A stretch of DNA of 64,000 bases from Caulobacter rhizosphaerae (GTDB lineage Bacteria > Pseudomonadota > Alphaproteobacteria > Caulobacterales > Caulobacteraceae): positions 3,154,501 to 3,218,500 of the forward strand of contig NZ_CP048815.1 of the NCBI RefSeq assembly GCF_010977555.1. Direction: 5' to 3'. The notes under the pieces are model-generated. The model saw only the letters and a program-made list of their open reading frames with translations. It did not search any database and was not told where the DNA came from. The position numbers and the translations under genes are program-made. Shown piece by piece: positions 4,191-9,547 of the stretch. Positions within the stretch are counted from its first letter, which is position 1; each line of letters begins with the position of its first letter.

Positions 4191-7625
<3,435 letters not shown>

Positions 7626-7649
7626 CACCGCACCTCACCGCTACACGAC

Positions 7650-7739
7650 TCAGGCCACTAGCTGGGCGACCTGACACATCATCCAGACGAAGCTGACGAC
7701 AGATACAAGAGCCAAAGACTCACGCGCGATACGGACCAT
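7650..7739 (-). CDS. sidA: SidA-like SOS-induced cell division inhibitor, 29 residues
   Basis: A 29-codon gene with a very strong ribosome binding site (AGGAGG, 6 bases before ATG). The product has a basic N-terminus (MVRIARES) and then one hydrophobic helix (ALVSVVSFVWMMCQVAQLVA), so it should be a single-pass inner membrane peptide. In Caulobacter crescentus, SidA is a 29-residue LexA-controlled membrane protein that blocks division by contacting FtsW/FtsN, and I recall its gene lying beside dnaE. Length, topology, position and a near-consensus SOS box upstream all agree. I identify it from these traits; I could not align it to SidA. Confidence 0.75.
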   Translation of the reverse strand: MVRIARESLALVSVVSFVWMMCQVAQLVA

Positions 7740-7775
7740 GGGAACCCTCCTGCGGTCGTTGCTTGTTTGTTCTAT

Positions 7776-7790
7776 ATTCCACTTTTGTTC
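7776..7790 (-). promoter_or_regulatory. Candidate LexA (SOS) box for sidA
   Basis: Read on the minus strand this is GAAC-N7-GAAT, one base off the alphaproteobacterial LexA site GAAC-N7-GAAC (GTTC-N7-GTTC on the other strand). A further GAAC lies 3 bases on (7772-7769), and the TATAGA-like sequence between them could be the -10 element. It sits about 37 bases before the sidA start, where LexA would block transcription. It could also affect the divergent gene at 7905. Confidence 0.5.
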
Positions 7791-7904
7791 TCGCGCGCAA
7801 GAGACCCTCGTTCGATTGCGCGCTTTTTTGTCGCGTAGCCGCGCGCCTGGGCCGCAGCCCCCCTTTCCAGTGGATTTGCGCCCCGGATCGGCGCAGATCG
7901 CCCC

Positions 7905-8864
7905 ATGCGCCTGATCATCGACACCGACACCGCCGGGGACGACGTGTTCTCCCTGATGCTGGCCCTGCGCCGCCCGGACGTGAGCGTCGAGGCCATCACC
8001 ATCGCCCACGGCAATGTCGGCTTCGAGCAGCACGCCGAGAACGCCCTGGCCACCCTGGAAGCCTGCGAACGCGGCGGCGAGATCCCGGTCTATCTGGGCG
8101 CCCAGCGGCCGTTCACCCGCGCGCCGCTGGACGCGGCCTATGTGTTCGGGGCCGACGGCATGAGCGACAGCGGCTTTGCGAAGACCGTCCAGCGCCCCTC
8201 CCCCGGCCACGCGGCCGACGAAATCGTGCGGCGGGTGATGGACGCGCCCGGCGAGATCACCCTGATCGCCCAGGCCGCCCTGACCAACATCGCCCTGGCC
8301 TATCTGCGCGAGCCGCGCATCGCCCAGGCGGTCAAGCGCCTGTGGATCATGGGCGGAACCGACAACGGGGTCGGCAACGTCACCCCCGCGGCCGAGTACA
8401 ATTTCTATGTCGATCCGGAAGCGGCCAAGATCGTGATCAACGCCGGCTTTCCGACGAGCATCGTCACCTGGACCGAGACGCTGCGGGACGGCCTGCTGAC
8501 CGTGGACCAACTGGCGGCGCTGGAGGCCCTGGGCACGCCGCGCGCGGCGTTCTTCACGAAGGTCAACCGCACCTCCCTGGCCTTCGCCCAGGAAACCCAA
8601 GGCCTGGACGGCAGCCTGCATCCGGACGCCCTGACCTGCGCCGTGGCGCTGGACGAGACCCTGATCCTGGAGTCCGACATGGCCGTGGTCGATGTCGAGA
8701 CGATCGGCGAGCTGACGCGCGGCTATCTGAGCGTCTCCCACCCGATCCTGCCGGACATCGAACTGGCGGATCCGGCTCTGAAGCGCCGGCCGCCCAACGC
8801 CCGGATGATCCGGAAGATCGACCAGGCGGGCTTCTACGCCGCCATGCGGGCCGCGCTGCTCTAG
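7905..8864 (+). CDS. Nucleoside hydrolase (inosine/uridine-preferring family)
   Basis: 319 residues, normal family size. The N-terminal calcium-binding signature appears as IIDTDTAGDDVFSLMLAL (residues 4-21), and further fold markers include ITIAHGNVG, TLIAQAALTNIALAY, LWIMGG and AEYNFYVDPEAA. These enzymes cleave the N-glycosidic bond of nucleosides for purine or pyrimidine salvage; substrate preference cannot be read here. The start ATG lies just after a GC-rich leader without a strong ribosome binding site. The TAG stop interlocks with that of lolD on the opposite strand in a shared CTAG (8861-8864). Confidence 0.88.
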   Translation: MRLIIDTDTAGDDVFSLMLALRRPDVSVEAITIAHGNVGFEQHAENALATLEACERGGEIPVYLGAQRPFTRAPLDAAYVFGADGMSDSGFAKTVQRPSPGHAADEIVRRVMDAPGEITLIAQAALTNIALAYLREPRIAQAVKRLWIMGGTDNGVGNVTPAAEYNFYVDPEAAKIVINAGFPTSIVTWTETLRDGLLTVDQLAALEALGTPRAAFFTKVNRTSLAFAQETQGLDGSLHPDALTCAVALDETLILESDMAVVDVETIGELTRGYLSVSHPILPDIELADPALKRRPPNARMIRKIDQAGFYAAMRAALL

Positions 8865-9547
8865 AAGCTCTGCGCCACCAGGTGGCCGTCCTTCAGAGCG
8901 AAGACCCGGTCCATGTAGCGGGCCAGCTCCATGTTGTGGGTGGCGATCAGGGCCGCCACGCCCCTTTTACGGGCCTGATCGTACAGGGCCTGGAACACCG
9001 CCGCCGAATTGGCCGGGTCGAGGTTGCCGGTCGGTTCGTCGGCCAGCAGCAGCTTCGGGCTGTTGGCCAGCGCCCGGGCGATGGCCACGCGCTGCTGCTC
9101 GCCGCCGGACATCTGGCCCGGCTGGTGCTCGATGCGCTGAGCCAGGCCCAGTTGCTCGAGCATCACCTGGGCCGCCTCGCGCGCCTCACCCCGGCCCTTG
9201 CCCGCGATCATCGCCGGCATGGCCACGTTGTCGAGCGCGCTGAACTCGGGCAGCAGGTGGTGGAACTGGTAGACGAAGCCGACGGTCGACAGCCGCATCT
9301 TGGTGCGCTGGCGCTCGGACAGCTTGGAGCAGTCGCGGCCGTCCAGGGCGATCAGGCCGGCGTTGGGCTTTTCCAGCAGGCCGGCCGCGTGCAGCAGCGA
9401 CGACTTGCCCGAACCGGACGGACCGATCAGGCCCACGACCTCGCCCGGATAGACGTCCAGGTCGACGCCGCGCAGCACGTTCAGGGCGCCGGCCTCGGTG
9501 ACATAGGTGCGCTCGACGCCGCGCAGGGCCAGGACGGGGCTACTCAT
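8861..9547 (-). CDS. lolD: Lipoprotein-releasing ABC transporter ATP-binding protein LolD
   Basis: 228 residues. Walker [10 protein letters not shown] is at 42-50, the Q-loop in [14 protein letters not shown], the signature MSGGEQQR and Walker [13 protein letters not shown] follow, and the switch histidine is in IATHN. LolD powers release of outer-membrane lipoproteins from the inner membrane to LolA. The start overlaps the end of the permease gene by 8 bases, so the two are translationally coupled and form one operon with proS upstream. Confidence 0.95.

Follow-up and report, generated by a model that had tools for sequence, protein, structure and literature searches.

Within the window, by which we mean the whole 64,000-nucleotide stretch of Caulobacter rhizosphaerae DNA that was analysed, a 29-codon open reading frame (ORF) lies on the minus strand directly upstream of dnaE, behind two predicted LexA boxes. 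The features of this locus, in order of position, are as follows:

4191..7628, minus strand: dnaE, replicative DNA polymerase III alpha (NF004226/TIGR00594 and Pfam), 21 nt 3' of sidA
7650..7739, minus strand: very probably sidA, 29-residue SOS cell-division inhibitor (ATG 7739-7737, TGA 7652-7650; NCBIfam NF033228.1)
7746..7751, minus strand: Shine-Dalgarno sequence AGGAGG, read from the sequence, 6 nt 5' of the sidA ATG
7758..7772, minus strand: predicted LexA box 2, GAACAAACAAGCAAC, 7/8 positions, 18 nt downstream of box 1
7771..7776, minus strand: putative -10-like element TATAGA, read by eye, touched by both LexA boxes
7776..7790, minus strand: predicted LexA box 1, GAACAAAAGTGGAAT (GAAC-N7-GAAT), 7/8 positions, between the -35-like and -10-like elements, conserved in Caulobacteraceae
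7795..7800, minus strand: putative -35-like element TTGCGC, read by eye, 18 nt before the -10-like element
7905-8864, plus strand: nucleoside hydrolase gene (PF01156), between the lolD-like gene and sidA
8861..9547, minus strand: lolD-like ABC ATPase gene, upstream (best NCBIfam match TIGR02211, LolD, 262.6 bits, below the cut-off of 307.75)

As the first-pass annotation had stated, the ORF has 29 codons, a ribosome binding site, a basic start and one hydrophobic stretch, all of which can be read directly from the sequence; the product, MVRIARESLALVSVVSFVWMMCQVAQLVA, is exactly 29 residues long. The same annotation proposed that this product is probably SidA, and the proposal is upheld. When the 29 residues are compared with SidA through the curated equivalog model NF033228.1 (div_inhib_SidA), they match it from end to end, with 71.6 bits against a cut-off of 35 (E 3.5e-20). 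Since a curated model exists that scores the ORF at twice its cut-off, the further statement that the gene is missed by automatic callers is unsupported. No Pfam model was found for the ORF at E 0.001. On the whole genome the SidA model finds a single locus, at 69.2 bits, and in 14 control genomes its sole match is in Caulobacter vibrioides. The protein has one predicted transmembrane helix and a best 17-residue hydropathy value of 2.08, computed on the identical SidA of Caulobacter sp. BK020; this strain, whose dnaE is 99% identical, is the closest of the named relatives in the set of 80 loci that we kept out of 584 dnaE relatives.

The gene is found throughout the genus. In a first draw, sidA is present in 37 of 37 genus genomes (E 3.1e-7 or better), and in a wider draw in 72 of 75 (E 3.6e-9 or better); the remaining three, one with a weak match and two with none, are genomes that are 73-86% complete. 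A single-sequence search of 24 genomes from other families gave two matches, both weak (E 0.55 and 1.19). A phage copy of SidA was considered and rejected, as 50,697 phage records held no match at E <= 1. For the comparison within Caulobacteraceae, a pattern search recovered the ORF from 86 of the 88 loci (L023 and L070 were missed); seven pairs of loci are one genome under two names, which leaves 79 distinct loci, 78 of them with at least 80 nt of upstream sequence. The SidA reading frame is under purifying selection, with pN/pS 0.25 over 1,109 pairs of at least 80% DNA identity, some of them from duplicate genomes. The window ORF agrees with SidA of Caulobacter crescentus (NF033228) in its length of 29, its full-length match to the model, its single helix and its LexA-type promoter. 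It is very likely, on these comparisons, that the window ORF is sidA; that is, judged by sequence, the window gene is the ortholog, in another species, of a known checkpoint protein.

The first-pass annotation had also placed a GAAC-N7-GAAT site at the promoter. This site is real, runs from 7790 to 7776, and starts 51 nt 5' of the ATG. The claim of a LexA-type promoter stands, and the site is conserved in Caulobacteraceae, but a single site is only half of what proves to be a tandem operator: box 2, at 7772-7758, was absent from the earlier description. A LexA scan of the window, which had been suggested as a check, finds the operator sites, but sites that differ from GTTC-N7-GTTC at one position or fewer do not exceed chance in number (35, against 42.7 expected), and no perfect GTTC-N7-GTTC site was found in the window. 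We therefore rejected the operator as stand-alone evidence, sites of 7/8 being no commoner in the window than chance would have them. It rises above chance because of the second 7/8 site and the conservation of the pair: paired sites of 7/8 or better, 16-19 nt apart, occur at 76 of the 78 distinct Caulobacteraceae loci (83 of 85 before duplicates were removed), against 0 of 78 when the half-site is read backwards. All 78 loci have at least one site of 7/8 or better, and 41 have at least one perfect site. The window promoter has two 7/8 boxes, whereas part of its relatives have a third, perfect box. Across the genome, GAAC-N7-GAAY occurs 197 times; its backward reading occurs 116 times. The genome also contains lexA, recA and ftsW, and GAAC-N7-GAAC, to which we refer below as the perfect box, is found near both lexA and recA. 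The lexA gene lies about 33 kb from sidA, outside the window (G000:C1:3128700-3129395).

Read by eye, the window and many relatives have TTGnnn about 17-19 nt before a -10 element like TATAGA or TATGGA, and some relatives have TTGACG or TTGTGA near the -35-like position. The spacer is thus taken up by box 1, while box 2 extends to the end of the -10-like element, and LexA bound to such a layout would exclude RNA polymerase. Downstream, dnaE begins 21 nt past the sidA stop codon, which bears out the adjacency given in the first-pass annotation and is the arrangement that we take C. crescentus sidA to have as well. A terminator scan of 7500-8000 finds no terminator-like site in the 7629-7649 gap between sidA and dnaE; its one hit is a weak site inside sidA at 7721-7709, with 0.4 expected. 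Since the gap is without a terminator-like site, read-through from sidA into dnaE is likely. The gene 5' of sidA is on the opposite strand, and, together with the short gap and the lack of a terminator-like site, this means that dnaE may be transcribed partly from the SOS promoter. A strict sigma-70 scan finds no promoter at this place, so that the promoter hexamers, like the read-through, are inferred rather than observed.

These features suggest the following course of events, in which the action of SidA is carried over from C. crescentus. In undamaged cells LexA would occupy the two tandem boxes, covering the spacer and the -10 region, and RNA polymerase would be blocked. DNA damage would activate RecA and lead to LexA cleavage, upon which the 29-residue, one-helix SidA would be produced and enter the inner membrane. 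There it would bind FtsW and keep the septal FtsW/FtsI/FtsN complex inactive until repair is complete, while transcription would probably continue into dnaE. SOS induction, FtsW binding and the division block are thus ascribed to window SidA by analogy.

The analogy draws on published work on C. crescentus. SidA interacts with FtsW, and SidA and a second protein, DidA, are thought to keep the FtsW/FtsI/FtsN complex inactive; cells without both divide prematurely after damage, which is lethal (PMC4211646). The two are partly redundant, and delta-sidA cells still arrest division in mitomycin C (PMC4211646), so that the first-pass annotation goes too far in making division arrest dependent on this gene. 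The filamentation of a delta-lexA strain is due to sidA, which is an early SOS gene with a promoter stronger than that of uvrA (PMC12700426). The start codon of C. crescentus sidA had needed correction (PMC4117421).

The arrangement of LexA box, short ORF and dnaE extends beyond Caulobacteraceae. Among the 80 named loci, one-helix short ORFs lie directly upstream of dnaE in Maricaulis, Oceanicaulis, Robiginitomaculum, Parvibaculum, Tepidicaulis, Phreatobacter, Stappia, Pseudovibrio and others, and all of these named genera except Oceanicaulis have a perfect box upstream of the ORF. Magnetospirillum, Insolitispirillum and one Rhodobacteraceae strain have neither box nor ORF upstream of dnaE. 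The same is true of the dnaE copies on plasmid records of Methylobacterium, Cereibacter, Ruegeria, Azospirillum and Sphingomonas, some of which may be second copies of dnaE.

We counted these arrangements in two samples. In the first, drawn evenly from the class, 188 of 192 genomes yielded a dnaE position, and for 140 of these, representing 95 families, the region upstream of it was collected. A perfect box occurs within 700 nt upstream of dnaE in 22 of the 140 regions; nine other spacings give 0-6, and the motif when reversed or complemented gives 1-2. In 20 of the 22 box regions, a one-helix ORF with an ATG start opens 15-130 nt past the box, compared with 61 of 3,540 random anchors (1.7%) in the box-less regions. 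The two misses, G127 and G421, do hold such an ORF; in one case it falls short of the hydropathy limit, and in the other no ATG is in range. In the other 118 regions the perfect box is missing, so the distribution of box and microprotein is patchy. The thresholds for the class sample were fixed after 80 of its 140 regions had been seen, and the second sample, from the Sinorhizobium-type order, therefore serves as an out-of-sample test with thresholds unchanged. Here dnaE was found in 62 of 63 genomes, and 58 regions were used (two duplicates and two without a dnaE start were omitted). The box is present in 31 of the 58, against 0-5 for control spacings, and a one-helix ORF follows it in 28 of the 31, representing 23 of 45 sampled families; the misses are G611, G655 and G630. 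The random-anchor rate is higher in this sample, at 66/810 (8.1%), and the ORF also follows in 6 of 18 regions with a control spacing, in part because the microprotein occurs in some regions without a box. Contigs that end near dnaE (for example L148, L249 and L260) were retained in the denominators, and family labels were copied by hand from the listings of dnaE locations. Similar one-helix microproteins upstream of dnaE but without a perfect box were seen at L279 (G646), L315 (G607) and L321 (G660); since such microproteins also occur without the perfect box, counts based on the box probably understate the family.

Outside Caulobacteraceae, pN/pS is 0.18 when pooled over nine pairs, which are not all independent (L123 enters twice), and the substitutions are mostly synonymous, a pattern that indicates that these microproteins are coding. 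We regard it as highly likely that a LexA-linked, coding microprotein is real in these lineages.

The spacing of the elements bears on which gene the operator serves. It could be that dnaE is the meaningful LexA target and the microprotein a passenger, as might be expected from the 21-nt gap without a terminator-like site in the window and from a 2012 comparative study that lists dnaE among the genes already reported as SOS-regulated in C. crescentus (PMC3323433). However, the distance from box to ATG is tight, at 40-59 nt in 24 of the 28 ORFs picked by script (51 in the window), whereas the distance from ORF to dnaE match in the same set is loose, at 32-290 nt. Moreover, control of dnaE does not exclude a role for the microprotein, as both may be induced. 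We consider it improbable that the microprotein is only a passenger, and we retain the reading in which the box is a microprotein promoter.

Members outside the Caulobacterales include those of Sinorhizobium. For S. meliloti Ak57, the gene table, which is possibly incomplete, lists nothing between dnaE and an ABC ATPase gene whose position is that of lolD. This interval encodes MADFVRDLAAFASMSLFIVSISVIALGL, a one-helix protein of 28 residues, with GGAG before its ATG, and the ATG lies 48 nt past the start of GAACGGAAATAGAACAAAAAGGGAAC, which consists of two overlapping perfect boxes. The identical peptide is encoded in Sinorhizobium sp. K101, and one like it in Shinella; in both, a perfect box precedes the ORF. 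Immediately upstream of the microprotein interval, S. meliloti (L333) has the ABC ATPase gene, unlike the window, where the nucleoside hydrolase gene stands between. The L333 record itself (CP090106.1, 3.7 Mb) is labelled plasmid pSymB and carries dnaE and a lolCD-type pair; it therefore resembles a chromosome, or else a replicon given the wrong label.

The S. meliloti peptide was also used as a query against the family of G623, taken for Rhizobiaceae from best matches of 82-89%, and gives matches in 97 of 199 genomes at E 1, 40 of them at E <0.001. The best 30 loci were ranked by the peptide alone; neither box nor dnaE was used in the search, and yet 29 of the 30 have a perfect box and 28 a downstream dnaE motif. 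At loci with several possible start codons, the script favoured the start with dnaE and more boxes. The Rhizobiaceae-type promoters (L341-L370) mostly carry, 26-51 nt before the ATG, GAAC repeats with an 11-nt period that form two or three overlapping LexA-type boxes, whereas the boxes of Caulobacteraceae stand in tandem, 16-19 nt apart.

A translated small ORF has been described at this place. A 2023 Ribo-seq study reports a novel sORF25 in the 5'-UTR of S. meliloti dnaE1, with function given as unknown, and proposes an upstream-ORF (uORF) role for 5'-UTR sORFs, singling out sORF25 (PMC10117765). From its position, we infer that sORF25 is the 28-residue Ak57 ORF; both are small ORFs just before dnaE, which the authors read as a possible uORF and we as a one-helix microprotein behind LexA boxes. 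Applied to the window, their suggestion would make the ORF, which stands just 21 nt before dnaE, a leader peptide or uORF that tunes dnaE translation, the protein itself being inactive. Yet the distance to dnaE varies from 32 to 290 nt, and the Phreatobacter-type ORF of G619 starts as far away as -693. The amino-acid sequence is under purifying selection and keeps its hydrophobic helix, for which a leader peptide has no need, and a protein function of SidA has been demonstrated in C. crescentus (PMC4211646). An inactive leader is thus very improbable.

It is important, then, to ask how the outside microproteins are related to SidA. The curated SidA model was run on ten dnaE-linked microproteins from other genera. 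Phenylobacterium passes with 67.2 bits, Brevundimonas (26.9) and Asticcacaulis (26.5) fall below the cut-off of 35, and the seven proteins from outside Caulobacteraceae give no match. In pairwise comparison, the S. meliloti microprotein against window SidA gives P 0.11 when all residues are shuffled and 0.21 when only the helix is; this single-sequence similarity is not significant, and we rejected it as evidence. Against five other Caulobacterales members the values are 0.0005-0.013 (helix-only 0.003-0.084). Weak matches to a SidA profile outside Caulobacteraceae were likewise rejected as evidence after a LolC-type helix reached 11.7 bits with that profile, since weak matches alone are then meaningless. 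A tally of 371 profile matches among 390 genomes of one family (19 without a match) was not taken as a count of family presence, because many of its matches are weak. Since none of the outside proteins scanned reaches the curated cut-off, and pairwise similarity is weak, we refer to them as SidA-like rather than as SidA.

Profiles can be compared with one another as well. The profile of 20 Caulobacteraceae SidA proteins against that of 32 hand-picked outside proteins (near-duplicates and further members of the same family omitted, start codons picked by eye) scores 33.0, with a probability of 95%. The maxima of the controls are 17.0 for 60 column permutations, 21.8 for 60 helix-only permutations and 14.0 for 13 windows on real membrane helices, taken from two families of proteins whose genes lie near dnaE, and the reversed profile scores 7.6. 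The script-picked set of 28, in which at least one ORF (G605) is probably wrong, scores 22.4 (73%), a value that none of 200 permutations reaches (maximum 18.4). A further set of 30 Rhizobiaceae-type proteins, composed of 28 of the 30 S. meliloti-peptide loci (two longer proteins dropped, three trimmed to ATG) plus S. meliloti and Shinella, scores 22.7 (82%), reached by 0 of 120 permutations (maximum 20.6). Each of these probabilities belongs to a single comparison, and they are therefore not proof.

The four alignments also share a pattern. D or E occupies the most acidic column in 30 of 32 hand-picked, 26 of 28 script-picked, 16 of 20 SidA and 30 of 30 Rhizobiaceae-type proteins, and the column ten positions later is aromatic in 18, 23, 19 and 30 of them, respectively. 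In three of the four alignments no column is more aromatic than this one; in the hand-picked set it is second, behind a later, mostly tryptophan column.

One could still suppose that the microproteins outside Caulobacteraceae arose independently, or that they are DinQ-like membrane toxins induced by the SOS response, and that they are not relatives of SidA. Identity is low, one-helix proteins come to resemble each other easily, the SidA model gives no match for any of the seven outside proteins, and DinQ of E. coli is indeed an SOS-regulated, toxic single-helix peptide (PMC3567139). Separate origins would, however, have to arrive at the same neighbourhood, at similar operator distance and length, and at the acidic column with an aromatic one ten later in four separately built alignments. 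They would also leave unexplained why the profile scores exceed all permuted and real-helix controls, and why the Brevundimonas and Asticcacaulis forms are intermediate between SidA and the outside microproteins. On balance we hold independent origin to be unlikely and common descent of the dnaE-linked microproteins with SidA to be likely, as far as sequence comparison can tell. SidA thus probably belongs to a widespread family of SOS microproteins, which we propose to define as LexA-controlled, dnaE-linked and one-helix, with an acidic residue at the helix start that is often followed, ten positions on, by an aromatic one. As to function, we lean, by analogy with SidA, towards division inhibition in the outside members as well.

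Taken together, the evidence suggests that SidA, rather than being peculiar to Caulobacter, belongs to an SOS checkpoint that is old in the Alphaproteobacteria. Microproteins with one helix and about 24-47 residues, under LexA control and encoded a short way 5' of dnaE (in Caulobacterales, 23 of the 45 sampled families of the Sinorhizobium-type order and several further families), would block division via the septal FtsW complex and would be co-transcribed with dnaE. We put the probability of this reading at roughly 0.6.

To our knowledge, SulA of E. coli has no relation to SidA. Like SidA it is an SOS-induced division inhibitor, but it disrupts FtsZ polymerisation (PMC4211646). DidA of C. crescentus resembles SidA in being a small, one-helix, damage-induced inhibitor of the FtsW/I/N complex (PMC4211646); unlike SidA it has 71 residues, is controlled by DriD independently of SOS, and binds FtsN. 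The Gram-positive SOS inhibitors YneA, SosA and ChiZ are, like SidA, damage-induced membrane inhibitors with FtsW as the proposed target, and low-confidence AlphaFold 3 models in the same 2026 paper place SidA on FtsW TM7, on the side opposite to these inhibitors (PMC13396833). Unlike SidA, ChiZ and YneA have other domains.

Among the literature matches listed, which are mostly without subscription papers, none describes SidA relatives outside Caulobacteraceae, and the excerpts of PMC13384398, PMC2248561, PMC6473078 and PMC9578287 hold nothing on such relatives outside Caulobacter. A LexA site before dnaE is not in itself new, since LexA control of C. crescentus dnaE has been reported (PMC3323433); the class-wide reading of that site as a microprotein promoter has no precedent among the matches listed.

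The wider pattern would supply many Alphaproteobacteria with a candidate SOS division inhibitor, and it would offer a second reading of LexA sites that have been assigned to dnaE. It would account for a translated S. meliloti ORF of unknown function, and the damage-induced stop of division outside Caulobacter would be reducible to a single-gene question in that species. Finally, it suggests that SOS transcription may extend into the gene of the replicative polymerase.
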